Made by a program: the position numbers and the translations under genes. The notes under the pieces were generated by a model. That model saw only the letters and a list, made by a program, of their open reading frames with translations, was not told the origin of the DNA and ran no database searches. A DNA stretch of 64,000 nt from Methanobrevibacter sp. Its GTDB lineage: Archaea; Methanobacteriota; Methanobacteria; Methanobacteriales; Methanobacteriaceae. Below are positions 1,243-64,000 of this stretch, piece after piece. The stretch lies in contig NZ_JAFUHT010000077.1 of NCBI RefSeq assembly GCF_017468685.1, forward strand, positions 62,001 through 126,000, given 5' to 3'. How positions within the stretch are numbered: position 1 is the first letter of the stretch; each line of letters starts with the position of its first letter.

Positions 1243-1260
1243 AAAGGAGGTGAGAAAACG
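1243..1260 (+). promoter_or_regulatory. Strong ribosome binding site pointing to an ACG start
   Basis: AAAGGAGGTGA (1243-1253) is nearly perfect and lies four bases before ACG at 1258. The same geometry (GGTGA, four bases, start) precedes the ATG at 38941. No ATG, GTG or TTG lies at a usable distance: the in-frame TTG at 1186 is upstream of the site and the first ATG (1282) is 28 bases downstream of it. Confidence 0.5.
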
Positions 1261-3771
1261 AATAAAAAATATATCATTATTATGTCAATAATATTAATAT
1301 TATCATGTTTAAATTGTGTAAATGCTCAAGATAATGACACAAATATTATACAGGATTGTGATGATGCAGTGTTATCTGATAGTGATACAGGATCATTTAC
1401 AGAACTTAATGATTACATTAACTCAAATTATGGCAAAACAATCATTCTCAATAAAAGTTATGAGTATGATTCAGAAAATGACCATGCTTTCAGCAATAAT
1501 GGAATCCAAATTAAAGATAAAATCACTATTAATGGAAATAATCATTCTATAGATGCTAAAGGAATTAGAATATTTACAATAACTTCTCCTGATGTTGTCT
1601 TAAATAATATTACATTTAAAAATGCTGGAAAAAGGGCAATGTATATTGATGGAGAGGCAACTAACCTGGTTATTAATAATTCCTGTTTTACCAATAATTC
1701 AGCTTTAAACTGTGATGGTGGAGCAATGTATTGGGGAGGATCTCAAGGGACATTGCAAAACACTATTTTTAACGAGAATTATGTTTTACGTAATAACAAC
1801 CAAATCGATTATGTTGAAGGAGGAGCTGTTTATTGGGGCGGACACAACGGTACAGTTAAAAACTGTATTTTCACCAATAATGAAGCACGTTCTTATGTTA
1901 TAAACAATGGTGTTTATGAAGTGGAACATTCAGGTAACGGTGGAGCATTATACTGGTATGGTATAAATGGAACCGTTACTGACTGTGTATTTGCAAACAA
2001 TACTGCTTCAAGACATGCCGGAGGACTTTATTGGAATAAACCTAATGGAACTATTAAAAATTGTAATTTCACAAACAATCATGCAGTTCTTCAAGGAGGG
2101 GCTTTTAAAAATAATAATCTTTCATCCACACTTATAAACTGCAGATTCATTGACAATTATCTGGTAGGTACTGATTCTGAAAAAGGTCATGGTGGTGCAG
2201 TATACTATGAAAGAGGAGACAATATAATTATTGATTCCTATTTTAAAGGAAATAATGCATCATATGGTTCTGCAATTGCAGTTAGGAATTTGGAAGGTGT
2301 AAAACTTTCAATAACTACAACAACATTTGAATATAATCAAGCAGAATCCTCAAAGTTACCTATTACATCTTCCAATAGAAATTTCACAGCTACCTTATAT
2401 GGTTATGATAATATCATCAATAATATATGGAATGATAGAAAAAATGAAATTCCGATAACAATTGACGGTGTTACTCCTGTTTCAGGTGTTGAAAACTCTG
2501 ATGATGGGTCAAAATTATATCAGGATACTCGTGAATATAATCAAACCATAATCGTGTCCATTTTTGATGAAAATGATAATCCATTATACACTACAACTTT
2601 AACTACCAATTTGTATGGTAATGTAAGTTTCATCACTTATAATGGTGCAAAAATACAGTTTAAACATCCAAATGATGTGATATATACTGAAATATATAGT
2701 ACTTCAGATATACCTCCGCTAACTTTAACCAGTCAGAATTATGTATCTTATGCTAATGAAAATGTACCTATATTGTTTAATTTAATAGATAATGAGGAAA
2801 ATTTGATTTTGGATGGTACAATCACTGTTAAAGTTGGAAATGAAACTCATGTAATGTCTGCAGATAAAAGACAGGTAACTATCAAATCTCCAGATACTAA
2901 TGGACAATATCCAATAACTATAACTTATACAGATCCATATGGAATCAATTTGACCAAAACTTATACCTTGACTGTTTTGCCACGTTTAATTGAGGTAAAT
3001 ATTACAGTTGATGATGTATATTATCCAAGTTATGCATATGCAGTTGTTAGTGCTAATGTAAGTGGTAAATACATTATTACAGTTCCAGGAACCAATATCT
3101 CAAAAACTGTTGATATTGAACAATCCAATAAGGATTTTAACTTTGTTTTGGGCAAAATTAATTCTCAAAATGAAATTTATGAAGCTCAAACAGATTTAGG
3201 TCAAATATTGCCTGTAGGAAAATACAATGCAATTATTACAAGTTTGGTTGATGGTTATGATACTGCAACTAATAATGATGAGTTTAATGTATTGCCGGGT
3301 AAGATTGATGTGCATATCAAAGCTGATGATATAATTTATCCGGATAAAGTTCGTGCAGTTGTTAGCGCTAATGTAACTGGTAAATATATTATCTCAATTG
3401 ATGGAACCGGCATTACACAGGAAATCACTATTGGTGAGGCTAATAAGGACTATGAAATTATTATTAATCATACATTGCCTGTAGGCAAATATAAAATAAC
3501 AATTAAAAGCGCAATTGACGGATATGAAAATGCAACTAATTCAGATAATTTTACAGTAAAAGATAATCAAACTAATAAAACAAATACAACAATTAATAAT
3601 CAGGATGATTCTGATTCAGATGATTCAAGCCAAAATACAGATAACTCTTCTTTAAAACCAACTAAAAATACAATTTCTAAAACAATAGACAATCATACTA
3701 CTGCTAATCCAATACTTTTATTATTGTTAGTCTTATCAATATTGGGTGTTAACATCAATAGGAAAAACTAA
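1258..3771 (+). CDS. Adhesin-like beta-helix surface protein
   Basis: About 837 residues if translation starts at ACG 1258. That start gives a proper signal peptide: TNKKY basic region, hydrophobic IIIMSIILILSCL core, and a likely cut after VNA. Starting at ATG 1282 would remove the lysines. Residues about 60-400 are parallel beta-helix repeats of the pectate-lyase/polymorphic-membrane-protein type, with recurring GGA-YW-G and NCxFTNN rungs. Three or four Ig-like domains follow (VDDVYYP and ADDIIYP openings, each ending in LPVGKY). An Asn/Asp/Ser-rich linker leads to the C-terminal TANPI plus hydrophobic plus NRKN tail shared with two other proteins here. Likely secreted and surface-attached; ligand unknown. 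Hairpin terminator follows. Confidence 0.85.
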   Translation, partial: TNKKYIIIMSIILILSCLNCVNAQDNDTNIIQDCDDAVLSDSDTGSFTELNDYINSNYGKTIILNKSYEYDSENDHAFSNNGIQIKDKITINGNNHSIDAKGIRIFTITSPDVVLNNITFKNAGKRAMYIDGEATNLVINNSCFTNNSALNCDGGAMYWGGSQGTLQNTIFNENYVLRNNNQIDYVEGGAVYWGGHNGTVKNCIFTNNEARSYVINNGVYEVEHSGNGGALYWYGINGTVTDCVFANNTASRHAGGLYWNKPNGTIKNCNFTNNHAVLQGGAFKNNNLSSTLINCRFIDNYLVGTDSEKGHGGAVYYERGDNIIIDSYFKGNNASYGSAIAVRNLEGVKLSITTTTFEYNQAESSKLPITSSNRNFTATLYGYDNIINNIWNDRKNEIPITIDGVTPVSGVENSDDGSKLYQDTREYNQTIIVSIFDENDNPLYTTTLTTNLYGNVSFITYNGAKIQFKHPNDVIYTEIYSTSDIPPLTLTSQNYVSYANENVPILFNLIDNEENLILDGTITVKVGNETHVMSADKRQVTIKSPDTNGQYPITITYTDPYGINLTKTYTLTVLPRLIEVNITVDDVYYPSYAYAVVSANVSGKYIITVPGTNISKTVDIEQSNKDFNFVLGKINSQNEIYEAQTDLGQILPVGKYNAIITSLVDGYDTATNNDEFNVLPGKIDVHIKADDIIYPDKVRAVVSANVTGKYIISIDGTGITQEITIGEANKDYEIIINHTLPVGKYKITIKSAIDGYENATNSDNFTVKDNQTNKTNTTINNQDDSDSDDSSQNTDNSSLKPTKNTISKTIDNHTTANPILLLLLVLSILGVNINRKN

Positions 3772-39430: not shown

Positions 39431-39446
39431 AGGTTGTGATATTATC
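39431..39446 (+). promoter_or_regulatory. SD-like site pointing to an ATC start
   Basis: AGGTTGTGAT (39431-39440) matches the consensus AGGAGGTGAT at 8 of 10 positions. ATC at 39444 follows TGAT by three bases, exactly as ATG does at 15900 and 16488. Confidence 0.4.
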
Positions 39447-40220
39447 AAAATTGAAGCTGTTAAAACTTATGAAAATGGATTTATGAAGCAGCCTTTTGCC
39501 TTTGGTGGTGAAGAAGGTATTGAAAACTTTGATGCATCAATAAGATATAGGGCAAGCATCAATAATTATCTGATTGATACAGGAGATGAAGTTATCCTTG
39601 TTGACACTGGAATACCTTCCGATTTTCCTGATCCTGAAGCAGATGATTCAGTCATGATTTATAATGGTGAAAGAATCAGTGATTATATGACTGCTTTTGA
39701 AAAGTTAGGATATAAAAAGGAAGATGTAACTAAAATTCTTTTAACCCACAAGCATCCTGATCACTCCGGTGAGCTAAAGCAATTCCCTAATGCAAAAGTT
39801 TATCTTTCAAAAACCGAAGCTGAAGCATTAGATTTGAATGGAGACAATATTGTAACTGTTGATTATGATGACGAATATTATAATTTCAGCAATGCGCAAA
39901 AAATTATTGATGATGTATATTTAATTGAAGCAATCGGTCATACCAATGGTAACAGTATCGTAATTGTAAAAGATGATGACATATTCTACATGATTCATGG
40001 AGACGTTACATATACTGATGAGGCATTGTATGAAAACAAGTTATCAATTGTTTTTGAGAATATCGAAAAGGCTCGTGAAACATTGGATAATATTCGTGAA
40101 TTCATCATGAATCATCCGACCGTATATCTGTCAACACATACTCCATTAGGTCCTGAAAACCTTGAAAACAAATATATAATGGATTTGGAAAATCCTCCGG
40201 AAAGTATTTATCCAGAATAA
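39444..40220 (+). CDS. Metallo-beta-lactamase fold hydrolase
   Basis: 258 residues from the apparent ATC start; ATG 39483 would give 245. NYLIDTGDEVILVDTG opens the fold, LLTHKHPDHSG is the HxHxDH metal site, and GHTNGNS, MIHGDV and the late His in LSTHTP complete the ligands. It is a general MBL-fold enzyme (glyoxalase II / thiolesterase / quorum-lactonase relatives); substrate unknown. The 13 extra residues (KIEAVKTYENGF) read as a natural first beta strand. It lies 23 bases after the ferritin-like gene and may share its transcript. Confidence 0.75.
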   Translation: MKIEAVKTYENGFMKQPFAFGGEEGIENFDASIRYRASINNYLIDTGDEVILVDTGIPSDFPDPEADDSVMIYNGERISDYMTAFEKLGYKKEDVTKILLTHKHPDHSGELKQFPNAKVYLSKTEAEALDLNGDNIVTVDYDDEYYNFSNAQKIIDDVYLIEAIGHTNGNSIVIVKDDDIFYMIHGDVTYTDEALYENKLSIVFENIEKARETLDNIREFIMNHPTVYLSTHTPLGPENLENKYIMDLENPPESIYPE

Positions 40221-57688: not shown

Positions 57689-58255
57689 ACTATTTTTTTA
57701 AATTTAAAATAAGCGATTTTTAATTGTTTTTTATTATTATCTGTTTTTTTTAAAATCATTGTAAAGAAATTATTTACATATTGGTTTAATATTTTTTAGT
57801 ATTTTTTTTACTTTATTATATAATTTTTTATACTTTTTTTTTATACATTTAACGATTTTCAATTCATAATGATTAATATTTTTTTAACTTAATAGTTATT
57901 TTTAGTTGATTTGTATAATTTTATTTTTTATTGTGGAAAATTTTATAAAAATTCTGCTATTTGTTGAAAATTATTAAATTTAATATATTGAACATTTTTC
58001 ATTATTTTTTATTTTTTTTAATTATATTGTTAGTAAATTTTATATATAATTAGAAAATAATATCATAAATGCAATAATATTTTGATAATTAGTTTTTTAA
58101 CTTTTAATCTAAATTCAATAGGATGAAATTAAAAAAATTTTAAATAAAAATAATAAATTTTATTTAATTAAATTTAATTTTTTCTACATTGTCAAAATTA
58201 TGTTGTGATATGATAAATTTGATTTATTATATGTGTAAGTAAAAAATTGTATTCA
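57689..58255. other. Extremely AT-rich intergenic stretch
   Basis: No gene seen. The region is almost all A and T with many T runs, and it is the upstream region of the giant adhesin. Confidence 0.4.
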
Positions 58256-58256
58256 T

Positions 58257-58273
58257 AAGGAGGAGATAATATC
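58257..58273 (+). promoter_or_regulatory. Strong SD site pointing to an ATC start
   Basis: AAGGAGGAGAT (58257-58267) ends three bases before ATC at 58271. An in-frame TAA at 58256 closes the frame upstream and no ATG, GTG or TTG lies before the TTG at 58295. Its spacing equals that of AGGTGAT-AAT-ATG at 16488. Confidence 0.5.
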
Positions 58274-61200
58274 AAAAAAATAGAAAAATCTATTTTGATT
58301 ATTTTGATATTATTCTTGCTCGTATTTTTAGTGGGAGTTGTTAGTGCATCACAAGATTCGGCAATGAATAATATGACATTAACGAAAACGGATGATGATG
58401 TTATATACGAGTCGCTGCCGAGTGATTCTGCTGAAGGCTACCTGCAAGCTAGTGATAATGAATTATTGTCAGCTACCCATGATATTTCAGGTTCTACTGT
58501 TCAGGATATTAAAAATTATTTTGATTCCGGAGCAGTTCATGAAGGTGATACAGTATATCTTGGAAATAAAGATTTCACATCCAATTGGCAGCAATGGGAT
58601 GGAAATCAGGTAAATGTCAATGTTGCTAATGTCATTATAACTGGTGGAAGCAGTTCCAACCCAAATGGATTTTCCACAATAAATGCAAATTATGCTAAAG
58701 TATTTAGCTTTAATGCAGCTGGAATCACTTTAAGCAATGTTAAGATTTTAAATTCAAATAGTGGTAGTGGACCAGGTTCTGCTGTTTACGTTCAGTCTTC
58801 AGACTGTAAAATAAATAATTGTTTATTTGATAATTGTGAAAATCAGAACGGTGGTGCTGTTCGTATAAATTCACAGGGAACAAATACTCAGTTTACTAAC
58901 TGTAATTTTACAAATAATGGAAACAAATGGACAGGAGATGGTGGAGCAGTATATGTGGAAGCTAATGACTGTAAATTTAACAATTGTCTTTTCGAAAAGA
59001 ATAATTATGCAAGATCAAATAATGAAATAGCTAATGGTGGGGCAATTTTCTCTACCGGAGCAAGGTTGACTGTAACAAACAGTTATTTCAAACAAAATGT
59101 TGCCCGTTCTGAATGGGGTAATGGTGGAGCTATTTGCTCTAAAGGGGCAGATTCAACAATATCCAATTGTACTTTTGAAGATAATTCTGCACCTTACGGT
59201 AAAGCAATTCACTGTGAAGGTACTAACGGTCTGGTAGACGACTGTAAATTCAGACAAAACATTGAAATGAGTGTTGAAAGTGGATTTTTATCATTGACAT
59301 TTGCTCTTTCAGTAGATTTTTCCCATATGATTAATGGTAATCCTGCTATTGAAAATTTAAAAATATGGGATGGCTCATCATATGTTCCAGGTAACCTGAC
59401 TGACGAGGGTGTGGTTAAATTACCAAATCAGGAACTCACTGTTGTCATTTATGATTCAAACGGTGATGAGATAGACAGAAAAACCGGAGTAACTGATAAA
59501 AATGGTGAAATGAAATATGATTATTCAAATCTCCCTGATGGAAGTTACACTTATAAGGTTTATTCCGGAGAACTTGAAAAAGAGGGCAGTTTTTTTAAAG
59601 GATCTATTCCTGTTGAAGGAAACAGATTTTCCGATATTCAAGCTGCAATAAACTCCGCTGAACCGGGAACAATTCTTCAACTGAAAGATGTCACTTACAT
59701 TAATGACATTCAAAACAATATGGTAATTGATAAATCAATTACAATTTTGGGCAGTAACGGAACTGTTTTGGATGCGGAAGGTTATTCCAGGATATTTAAA
59801 ATAAATGATAATGTAAATACTGTCAATTTAGTAAATCTCACATTTATTAACGGTAAAAGCAAAGAAAATGGTGGTGCAATTTATATTGGTGAAAATTGTG
59901 ATAATGTAAACATTTTAAATTCAAATTTCACCAACAATCATGTTGCAAATGACGGGTCACAGCAGTGGCCTGACAACTTTGGACATGGTGGTGCCGTTGC
60001 AATTTCAGCCAGCGCACACAATGGGCTGATTTCCGATTCAACATTTACAAATAACTCTGCTCCTGCAGGTGGAGGTGCTGTTAAAAACTTTGGTGCCCAA
60101 GGATGGGTCATTTCCAATTCAACATTTACCAACAACACTGCTTACGGTGTGCTCCAAAACAATCCGTCCCTTGTTCCTAATGGTGGTGGAGCGCTTTGGT
60201 CCTGTATGGCTCAAATGGAAATATTTAACTGTAATTTCACAGAAAACAAGGCTCCATATGGTGGTGCAATAAGAGGTTTCGTTGATACATTTGATTGTCA
60301 ATTCTACTTTAATGTCGCTACCAATGGTAACGGCGGTGCTATTGATGTTACTATCGACAGTCAAGTCGGAAGACCTAATCTTAAGTTTGTAAACACAACC
60401 TTTGTAAACAATACTGCAAAAGGACAACGTTCTCAGGACAGGGCACAGGGTGGTGCTCTTCACATGTACGACATTAACCATGTGGACATGATTGGCTGTA
60501 AATGTTTTAATAACACTGCAGACAGAGGTGGAGCTATTGATTTTTTCATTATCGGTACTACTGTAGTTGATAACTGTATTTTGGAAAACAACACTGCTCA
60601 TTCTGAAGGTGGTGCATTTTACATCAATACAACATCTTCACCGTGTGAGTTCATGAATTCCAATATTTCAAACAATAAGGCTGGTACTGATGGTGGTGCA
60701 ATCTATCTGATTACCGATGGTGCTTTCTTTGACAATATTATTTCTGTTAATAACAATGCGTCCCGTGGAGGTTCCGCTTTTATTCGTGGTCATGATGCTG
60801 TTGTACAGCATTCAACCTTCAACAACAATAATGCTATTTATAATGGAACCGACAATTCCGGTATCGGTGGAGCATTTGACATTTTAGGTAACAACTGTCA
60901 GCTGATTGATGTTACATCAAAATATAACAATGCTACTCTTGGTGGTTCAACATTTATTCGAGGGGACCATACAAAAATCAAACAGTCAACATTTGACAAT
61001 AACACTGCTACTTTGCGTGGTGGAGGTATAAATGTTGCTGGTGATTACTGTAACGTGAGTGATGTTGATGTATCCGGCAATTTTGCAGGTACTGATGGTG
61101 GTGCCGTTTACGTTAAAGGTGACTATTCTTCATTTGTTAGAGTAGATTCTATAAATAACACAGCTTGCCGTGGAGGTTCCACTTTTATTGAAGGAGACTT

Positions 61201-64000
61201 TGTTGATGTGCATGACTGTGTTTTAGATGGAAATAAAGCTATTGATAACGGTACAAATCTCAGTGGTAGAGGTGGTGGATTAGACATCGCAGGAGAAAAT
61301 TGTAAGATTTATAATCTTGAGGTTTCTAAAAACACTGCTGCACGTGAGGGTGGTGCATTCTATGTTAAAAGTAATGATATTCATTTCCATCATATTAACT
61401 CTACAGATAACTCTGCTCAACGTGGAGGTTCATCATATATTAGAGGAAATAATATTACCGTATCAGACTCAACATTTGATAGGAATAAGGCTATTTACAA
61501 TGGTACTAATGACACAGGTTTAGGTGGTGCATTGGATGTCTTGGGTAACGACTGTAAATTCATCAATGTCGAATCATTAAATAACAATGCTACTCTTGGT
61601 GGATCAACATTTATCAGAGGAAACAACACACTTATTAAAGATTGTGTACTTGATAACAATTATGCTACCGAACGTGGTGGCGGATTGGATATTGCAGGAA
61701 TAAATTGTACTGTAATTAATGTGGATTTATCAAATAACCATGCAGATGGAATCGGTGGTGCAGTTTACGTTTTAGGAGACAATGCAACATTTGATCATGT
61801 GGATTCAGAAAGAAACACTGCTACTCGTGGAGGTTCATCATTTATTGAAGGTAACTTTACCAAAATTATTGACTGTGATTTGGACAACAATAACGCTTCC
61901 GATAGAGGTGGATCATTGGATATTGCAGGAAACAACTGTACAGTTAGAAATGTAAATCTTTCAAACTGTCATGCAGCTAATGAAGGTGGTGCAATTTACG
62001 TTAAAGGTAATTTCACAACTTTTGACAATGTAATGTCTGTAAATAACACTGCTTCAAAAGGAGGTTCTTCATTCATTGAAGGTCATAATATTACAGTCCA
62101 GAATTGTCATTTGGACAGTAACAATGCTTCCATTCGTGGGGGTGGTTTGGATGTTGCAGGAGACAACTGTACTTTCATCAATGTTACTCTGTCAAACTGT
62201 AATGCCACTATAAATGGTGGTGCCGTTTATGTTAGAGGTGACAATGCATTATTTGATAATGTAACTTCCTTTAAAAACACTGCTTTGGCTGGTGGTTCAA
62301 GTTATATTGACGGAAATAATGTAATTGTTCAAAATTCCAGATTCAAGTATAATACAGCTTTAAAAATTGAAGAAGATCCTGAAACAGGTTTGGGTGGTGC
62401 AATTAATATTGAGGGTGATAATGCCCAGTTCTTAAATAATAACGTTTCCTATAATGAAGCAAACTCCGGTGGTGGAGTCTTTATTATAGGTGAAAATGCA
62501 TTATTCATGAATAATAATCTCACTTTTAACCGTGCAACCGGTAGAAATTCTGCTGGAGGAGCTGCAAGTATTGAAGGTGCAAATACTAATTTCACAAAAA
62601 ACAACATTTCTTCAAACTATGCTGCCGATAATGGTGGTGGAGTATTTGTTGCAAGTGAAAATGCATATTTTGAAGACATATATGCTTTCAATAACACTGC
62701 TGAAAATGGAGGGTTTGCAAAACTTTTCTTCGCTTTTGATTTAATCGTCAAAAATTCCACATTCATCAGCAATCATGCAATTGGTGATATTTCCAGAGAT
62801 AGAGGAGAAGGTGGAGCTTTCCATATAGATTTCTCATTTGATGCAGATATTCAGGCTAACTTCTATAACAACACTGCAACTAACGGTTCCGCAATTTATA
62901 TTCAAGACTCTTCAGTAAGGGTTCATGATTCAGAATTCTTTGATAATCTTGCTAGGTCTTACTTGCTTGTAATTGATTATGATAGGGGAAACAGCAGTGC
63001 AGACTGTACTGTTCAAGGCGTTTGCAACTGCAGTTGCAACTGCTCTAAAAACAAATCATTGATTCAGTCTTATGCATTAAATCGTATTTCTAAAGAAAAT
63101 AGGTTATATGCAAAATATTTGAATAATCTTTTGCGTGCATATGATGCTGAATGCGAATGTGCTTGTGGCTGTGATGGCAATTGTACTGAAGGCACATGTA
63201 ACTGTCACTGCAATGATTTGCAATACATCTCAACAGTTTATGAAGGCGAAAACATTACAATTCTCGTTTTCCATAAGGGTGGAGACAACATTGCAAATGC
63301 AATGTATAACAGAGATGGTGAAGTAACTGTAAACAATATCACTTATCAGTTCTTCGATGAAAATAATGAAGTAAGAACAATTCACAGTAAAGCAGAGGAT
63401 GTTGAACCTGAAGACATCCCAAATTATGATAATGTTTACCAGTATCCGTTTGAAAACAACCAGGTTATCAGAATTGAGGTTTATAACGAGACTGGAAGTT
63501 TAATTAAAAATGTGACTTATTCTGAAATTCCAAGAACTGACATTTATGGTGCTACACGTTTAACACTTGAAAACTTAACAAAAGGAAACTATACTGTTAA
63601 GGCAATCTATGATAAAAGCAGTTATTATACCGTTATCGGTAATCAAAGCAAGTTCAGGGTAATTCCGCTAATTGTTAAAATGGTGGATAAAGTTACTTTG
63701 AATGAAACAGTTATTCTAGGAGATAATGTAAGTTTTACCATTATTGTGAATAACACTAATGTTTTTGCACTACACAATGTGACCGTAACTGAAATTTTCA
63801 ATTCCGGTGAGTTGCAATTTGTAGGTTATACCAATCATGATAAATGGATTACAAAAGACAATATTACTTTTGTTTATAATGGCGTTTTAGGAGTTAATGA
63901 AAGTGCAAGCTTCACTATTACATTTAAAACATTGAAGACTGGTACTTTACTCAACACTGTTAATTTAACAACAAAGGAAACTGGAAACCGTACAGATAGT
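58271..64000 (+). CDS. Giant adhesin-like beta-helix surface protein, 3' end outside window
   Basis: 1910 codons are visible and the frame is still open at the end. From ATC 58271 the N-terminus reads IKKIEKSILIILILF, a full signal peptide with cut near VVSA. From about residue 70 to 1560 it is a parallel beta-helix with rungs like NNTA-GGA-YV-G and a supra-repeat (see 60767-62291). A Cys-rich insert lies at 63002-63211, then an Ig-like region and a DUF11-type domain (SFTIIVNNTNVFALHNVTVTE). Together with the other adhesins it probably mediates surface contact. Confidence 0.85.
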   Translation, partial: MKKIEKSILIILILFLLVFLVGVVSASQDSAMNNMTLTKTDDDVIYESLPSDSAEGYLQASDNELLSATHDISGSTVQDIKNYFDSGAVHEGDTVYLGNKDFTSNWQQWDGNQVNVNVANVIITGGSSSNPNGFSTINANYAKVFSFNAAGITLSNVKILNSNSGSGPGSAVYVQSSDCKINNCLFDNCENQNGGAVRINSQGTNTQFTNCNFTNNGNKWTGDGGAVYVEANDCKFNNCLFEKNNYARSNNEIANGGAIFSTGARLTVTNSYFKQNVARSEWGNGGAICSKGADSTISNCTFEDNSAPYGKAIHCEGTNGLVDDCKFRQNIEMSVESGFLSLTFALSVDFSHMINGNPAIENLKIWDGSSYVPGNLTDEGVVKLPNQELTVVIYDSNGDEIDRKTGVTDKNGEMKYDYSNLPDGSYTYKVYSGELEKEGSFFKGSIPVEGNRFSDIQAAINSAEPGTILQLKDVTYINDIQNNMVIDKSITILGSNGTVLDAEGYSRIFKINDNVNTVNLVNLTFINGKSKENGGAIYIGENCDNVNILNSNFTNNHVANDGSQQWPDNFGHGGAVAISASAHNGLISDSTFTNNSAPAGGGAVKNFGAQGWVISNSTFTNNTAYGVLQNNPSLVPNGGGALWSCMAQMEIFNCNFTENKAPYGGAIRGFVDTFDCQFYFNVATNGNGGAIDVTIDSQVGRPNLKFVNTTFVNNTAKGQRSQDRAQGGALHMYDINHVDMIGCKCFNNTADRGGAIDFFIIGTTVVDNCILENNTAHSEGGAFYINTTSSPCEFMNSNISNNKAGTDGGAIYLITDGAFFDNIISVNNNASRGGSAFIRGHDAVVQHSTFNNNNAIYNGTDNSGIGGAFDILGNNCQLIDVTSKYNNATLGGSTFIRGDHTKIKQSTFDNNTATLRGGGINVAGDYCNVSDVDVSGNFAGTDGGAVYVKGDYSSFVRVDSINNTACRGGSTFIEGDFVDVHDCVLDGNKAIDNGTNLSGRGGGLDIAGENCKIYNLEVSKNTAAREGGAFYVKSNDIHFHHINSTDNSAQRGGSSYIRGNNITVSDSTFDRNKAIYNGTNDTGLGGALDVLGNDCKFINVESLNNNATLGGSTFIRGNNTLIKDCVLDNNYATERGGGLDIAGINCTVINVDLSNNHADGIGGAVYVLGDNATFDHVDSERNTATRGGSSFIEGNFTKIIDCDLDNNNASDRGGSLDIAGNNCTVRNVNLSNCHAANEGGAIYVKGNFTTFDNVMSVNNTASKGGSSFIEGHNITVQNCHLDSNNASIRGGGLDVAGDNCTFINVTLSNCNATINGGAVYVRGDNALFDNVTSFKNTALAGGSSYIDGNNVIVQNSRFKYNTALKIEEDPETGLGGAINIEGDNAQFLNNNVSYNEANSGGGVFIIGENALFMNNNLTFNRATGRNSAGGAASIEGANTNFTKNNISSNYAADNGGGVFVASENAYFEDIYAFNNTAENGGFAKLFFAFDLIVKNSTFISNHAIGDISRDRGEGGAFHIDFSFDADIQANFYNNTATNGSAIYIQDSSVRVHDSEFFDNLARSYLLVIDYDRGNSSADCTVQGVCNCSCNCSKNKSLIQSYALNRISKENRLYAKYLNNLLRAYDAECECACGCDGNCTEGTCNCHCNDLQYISTVYEGENITILVFHKGGDNIANAMYNRDGEVTVNNITYQFFDENNEVRTIHSKAEDVEPEDIPNYDNVYQYPFENNQVIRIEVYNETGSLIKNVTYSEIPRTDIYGATRLTLENLTKGNYTVKAIYDKSSYYTVIGNQSKFRVIPLIVKMVDKVTLNETVILGDNVSFTIIVNNTNVFALHNVTVTEIFNSGELQFVGYTNHDKWITKDNITFVYNGVLGVNESASFTITFKTLKTGTLLNTVNLTTKETGNRTDS
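60767..62291 (+). repeat. Supra-repeat inside the giant adhesin
   Basis: The codons for GGS-(T/S)FI motifs start at 60767, 60941, 61172, 61424, 61598, 61829, 62060 and 62291. Intervals are 174, 231, 252, 174, 231, 231 and 231 bases, all multiples of three. Each block of 231 bases (77 residues) has three beta-helix rungs: GGSSFIEG, GGLDIAG-NCT and GGAVYV-G types. Confidence 0.7.
63002..63211 (+). other. Cysteine-rich CxC segment in the giant adhesin
   Basis: Translation gives DCTVQGVCNCSCNC, a 48-residue helical spacer, then CECACGCDGNC-TEGTCNCHC: 13 Cys in about 70 residues, mostly as CxC. The surrounding beta-helix holds only scattered single cysteines. Confidence 0.75.

Follow-up and report, generated by a model that had tools for sequence, protein, structure and literature searches.

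Near-cognate start codons probably used behind strong Shine-Dalgarno sequences in some exported surface proteins of Methanobrevibacter

In bacteria, the infC gene for initiation factor IF3 begins with a conserved AUU, one mismatch away from AUG, behind a Shine-Dalgarno (SD) sequence, and this start is under initiation-factor-sensitive control through which the fidelity factor autoregulates. In archaea, start codons are selected by aIF1, aIF1A and aIF2, with aIF1 biasing the choice against non-canonical ones (PMC6237735). Single near-cognate starts have been inferred there earlier, namely an ATC for L12ae of Staphylothermus marinus, based on alignment (PMC2678158), and an ATT with a ribosome binding site for the Asgard tubulin AtubA, based on alignment and the position of the binding site (PMC13394414). 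The pairing of stronger SD sequences with weaker starts is known for GUG and UUG (PMC5622118). Among the near-cognates of yeast, AAG and AGG are the least used (PMC6898956).

The gene described here lies in a 64,000-nt window (the whole stretch of DNA analysed, G000:C77:62001-126000) of the 2.28 Mb draft genome of a Methanobrevibacter sp. As the first-pass annotation had noted, direct reading of the forward strand shows the SD sequence AAGGAGGAGAT at 58257-58267, followed by AAT and then by ATC in start position at 58271-58273, with the frame shut upstream by TAA at 58256-58258. The annotation had also likened the spacing to that of ordinary ATG starts. Measured over 284 genes of this genome, the distance from the end of the SD motif to the ATG has its mode at 3 nt, the same distance as at 58271. 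The duplex of this SD with AUCACCUCCU has an energy of -11.7 kcal/mol, and GGAGGNGANNNNATC has no occurrence in the 2.28 Mb genome other than this site. The codon is thus one base off AUG and stands behind initiation signals at normal spacing, as expected of near-cognate initiation. Translation from ATC yields IKKIEKSILIILILFLLVFLVGVVSA, a typical signal peptide (58271-58348, with a predicted cleavage site). The open frame (58271-64000, forward strand) continues for 1,910 codons to the window end and comprises 3,157 codons within the contig (L045). Its product gave Pfam matches to the Chlam_PMP repeat, Beta_helix and DUF11 and has the features of Methanobrevibacter adhesin-like proteins: a signal peptide, beta-helix and/or Ig-like repeats, and large size.

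No in-frame ATG, GTG or TTG fits both the signals and the protein at this gene. The canonical codon that comes first in frame is TTG 58295 (codon 9), and a second TTG lies inside the hydrophobic core of the signal peptide (codon 12 in the window gene). Either could be the true start, with SD and ATC left as a relic; TTG starts are common in this genome, and the TTG in the core is common to all orthologues. However, neither has an SD at the right distance, and in both cases the signal peptide would lose every basic residue, which bears out the earlier remark that TTG 58295 would cut the basic part. TTG 58295 is moreover not conserved among orthologues, whereas the SD and ATC are invariant, and a downstream start leaves unexplained why near-cognates alone recur behind strong SDs. 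We therefore consider it unlikely.

The first-pass annotation had proposed comparing the first codon among orthologues. We searched 60 relatives with 601 bases of DNA around 58271 without requiring ATC. Eight other species of the genus have the same start region, and in all eight GGAGGAGA is followed by ATC at the corresponding position; counting the window's own, ATC is found in nine of nine species. Three extra species came from a pattern that itself contained ATC, and these ascertained cases were tallied apart from the unbiased nine; with them the count is 12/12, and GGAGGAGA is invariant throughout. As the species are related, the conservation of ATC is not fully independent. Strict conservation spans the SD and ATC and falls off afterwards: the codons past ATC, as well as the leader ahead of the SD, vary while ATC is kept, and all 12 orthologues retain the basic n-region and the hydrophobic core. 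Because the window derives from a 94-contig draft, one might suspect an error of sequencing or assembly, or else a gene in decay that has lost its ATG. Sequencing error is excluded at 58271, since all eight other species carry ATC there. The ATC is shared by nine species with independent assemblies, one of them complete, the frames are intact over 1,000-3,000 codons, and further cases occur in a finished genome and, for a CobN frame with its SD-ACG site, in 15 species (see below). Error or decay is therefore scarcely credible.

No ATG, GTG or TTG lies near the start in six of the eight orthologues, and the other two (G025, G028) have an ATG two codons further on. Together with G105, such an in-frame ATG (ATC-NNN-ATG) is present in 3 of the 12; G123 has ATT at the position of the ATG in G105. 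Part of the family might start at this ATG, with ATC conserved only as spacing within a leader element, and the leader is unusually conserved and contains a possible hairpin. A 10-bp inverted repeat with a 3-nt loop (TATGATAAAT-TTG-ATTTATTATA, 58209-58231, forward strand) is paired 100% in each of 12 species, where the exchanges G-U/A-U/G-C and A-U/C-G/G-C are seen. It is possibly an RNA hairpin, which the G-U pairs favour over a DNA operator, a preference tempered by the fact that most of the pairs never vary. Downstream of it lies a 19-base block, GTAAGTAAAAAATTGTATT (58235-58253, forward strand), in which nearly every column is invariant in the 12 species and which, among the sampled stretches, was found upstream of the giant adhesin gene only. 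A search of Rfam with the leader gave no match to a known RNA family. Against a start at this later ATG, the codon is missing in nine of 12 species, the window's included, strict conservation ends at ATC, and the leaders of other near-cognate genes are unrelated to the 58271 leader, which makes this reading improbable. The start regions L004, L005 and L037 are of this ATC-NNN-ATG form.

Several orthologues have an ATG immediately before GAGGAG (ATGGAGGAGATAATATC...), which overlaps the start region out of frame and from which the frame would have to be reached by frameshifting or reinitiation. This ATG is missing in the window and in other species, the stop positions differ, and no slippery signal was noted, so that we regard initiation there as very improbable.

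Two other genes of the window had been listed as further cases. The first is an adhesin-like gene (1258-3771, forward strand) of 837 aa with a signal peptide and Chlam_PMP/Beta_helix matches, identified by start scan and Pfam. Its ACG start at 1258 was corroborated: the SD AGGAGGTGAG (1245-1254, forward strand) is stronger than that of ATC 58271 and has a spacing of 3. It is a slightly weaker case in that an in-frame GTG or TTG, without a good SD, lies upstream. For the second, ATC 39444, the sequence was as described but the SD AGGTTGTGAT (39431-39440, forward strand) is weaker. This gene (39444-40220, forward strand) encodes a non-exported protein of the metallo-beta-lactamase fold (PF00753). 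Close relatives align with the query beginning at 39447 from its residue 1 or 2, and the downstream ATG 39483 is therefore unlikely as start. A homologue of the TMEM175-type potassium channel (L051:4929-5744, forward strand), likewise non-exported, has ATC in start position within a local start sequence (GGTGAT ATT ATC AAA) identical to that at ATC 39444.

We surveyed near-cognate starts in 590 kb of the same genome and 400 kb from each of three relatives (∼1.8 Mb, four genomes). As an SD scan without context filters was overrun by SD-like sites inside genes, we used scans filtered for a strong SD, an open frame and no canonical start, and then called starts by SD energy, which gave 1,040 genes. 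Near-cognate starts were assigned to 12 of 129 genes with a signal peptide (hydrophobic N-terminus) and to 3 of 911 others (Fisher p = 2.7e-9). All 12 non-canonical calls in signal-peptide genes fell at ATT, ACG or ATC and none at any other codon, while five non-signal calls fell at unrelated codons, which shows the noise level of the start calling. Duplex energies of the near-cognate cases range from -9 to -16 kcal/mol, compared to a median of -7.0 for signal-peptide genes starting with ATG, a gap for which the -9 threshold itself selects.

Among the examples, ATT is in start position at L043 3420, L043 14574, L098 16875, L069 14259 and L077 17220, and ACG at L044 19210, L098 7402 and L073 2637. 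Three more, all ATT, come from one finished genome (L114 7764, 1987 and 18825). Most of the listed proteins contain Ig-like, beta-helix or transglutaminase/PMBR domains. L114 1987 and L069 14259 are slightly weaker cases, with an in-frame GTG or TTG upstream that lacks a good SD. One ATT candidate, L137 19674, was discarded for its in-frame ATGs upstream, and calls at ATT/ATA in L063 and L057 were set aside as probable noise. A gene resembling TiaS (L088:12391, reverse strand) has ATT behind an SD and is ambiguous, with an in-frame GTG three codons upstream.

The codon preference behind strong SDs was tallied in 138 genomes of the family by counting the codon after GGAGGTGANNNN, with shifted canonical starts and immediate stops removed. 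Within the genus, ACG was found 23 times, ATC 13 and ATT 9, and ACA 7, ACT 3, AGG 1 and AAG 0 times; ATA (11) and CTG (6) were counted without gene context and are not clearly above chance. Chance would hardly produce the difference between ACG and the sum of AAG and AGG, though many of the ACG sites represent one orthologous group. The genus thus shows a eukaryote-like preference in which ACG, ATC and ATT recur and AAG and AGG are practically absent. This exclusion agrees with the view that archaea and eukaryotes have one start-selection core (aIF1, aIF1A, aIF2) in common.

A second conserved case is the gene at L098:7402-12264 (forward strand), whose ACG start precedes a CobN/Mg-chelatase-like surface protein with a signal peptide. 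Fourteen further species were picked because they contain GGAGGTGANNNNACG. In these, the site lies ∼0.9-1.2 kb upstream of a CobN domain on the same strand, as linked by coordinates, in one open frame of ∼1,200-1,680 codons. Counting the genome of the window, at least 15 species have an SD-ACG site upstream of the CobN domain, and all but this one had been selected for it. In G018 a second CobN, a paralogue, is preceded by a CTG site in the corresponding position. Near-cognate starts had been associated with very large surface proteins. The three cases listed under-estimated the extent, and the class reaches beyond giant adhesins, since it takes in one enzyme-like protein (CobN) and a small number of cytoplasmic or channel proteins.

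Taken together, we conclude that ATC 58271 is very probably the true start and that it exemplifies a wider habit in the genus, in which some Sec-exported surface proteins begin at near-cognate codons behind strong SDs. The codons would be ACG, ATC, ATT, sometimes ATA and perhaps CTG, and the proteins adhesin-like and CobN-like. At the level of sequence there is strong support for near-cognate initiation at ATC: the codon is conserved and normally spaced, the codons concerned all differ from ATG by a single base, and many more cases exist. We infer that ribosomes begin at this codon with Met. The strong SD duplex would hold the 30S subunit so that ATC sits in the P site, where the ordinary initiator Met-tRNA would be accepted despite the third-position mismatch, the SD making up for weak codon pairing.

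The near-cognate start had been suggested to keep expression of these proteins low. A putative role in lowering or gating surface-protein expression is plausible. As the near-cognate starts stand behind strong SDs, the expected outcome is not simply low output but partial compensation: a weak codon under scrutiny by aIF1, the fidelity factor, may keep synthesis modest or condition-dependent, and the strong SD would rescue it. It is conceivable, if rather doubtful, that gut methanogens of the genus gate part of their surface proteome by start-codon stringency, the level of aIF1 or the fidelity of initiation setting adhesin display with a eukaryote-like codon hierarchy. A special fidelity factor in the form of an aIF1 paralogue was considered and rejected, PF01253 being single-copy in ten relatives. 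In the G000 assembly itself aIF1 (SUI1, PF01253) was not found, probably owing to a gap in this 96%-complete draft.

Annotation with code 11 (ATG/GTG/TTG) would truncate or mis-start such proteins and strip them of their signal peptides. The organisms concerned matter to work on the human gut and on rumen methane, and their adhesins are among the targets suggested for vaccines. The near-cognate genes also offer a natural, conserved test set for archaeal start-codon selection. Adhesin-like proteins as a class, not necessarily the members with near-cognate starts, are abundant in vesicles of M. smithii (PMC12134236). Passages on adhesin-like proteins in two reports (PMC2812497, PMC11532034) make no mention of the start codons of their genes. 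Some M. smithii members are described as lacking a recognisable N-terminal membrane anchor, for which mis-annotated starts might be the cause. The proteins described here resemble the Methanobrevibacter adhesin-like proteins of those reports in their size, in having a signal peptide, and in their beta-helix and Ig-like domains.

Our literature search, mostly beyond subscription journals, found no near-cognate starts reported for Methanobrevibacter surface proteins, and within that scope no report of class-wide, conserved use next to the single archaeal ATC and ATT starts inferred earlier. L12ae and AtubA are likewise archaeal and share the same codons. They are, however, isolated genes, whereas here a class of exported proteins is concerned across a genus, with conservation between species and with ACG included. 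The use of ACG, AUU and other codons, with AAG and AGG the least used, is also shared with near-cognate initiation at yeast uORFs (PMC6898956), with the difference that in Methanobrevibacter the SD would place the ribosome without scanning and that main ORFs instead of uORFs would be started. As in infC, a conserved start with one mismatch stands behind an SD; unlike infC, the genes described here encode surface proteins, adhesin-like in the case of 58271, and not a fidelity factor, a part that in archaea belongs to aIF1.
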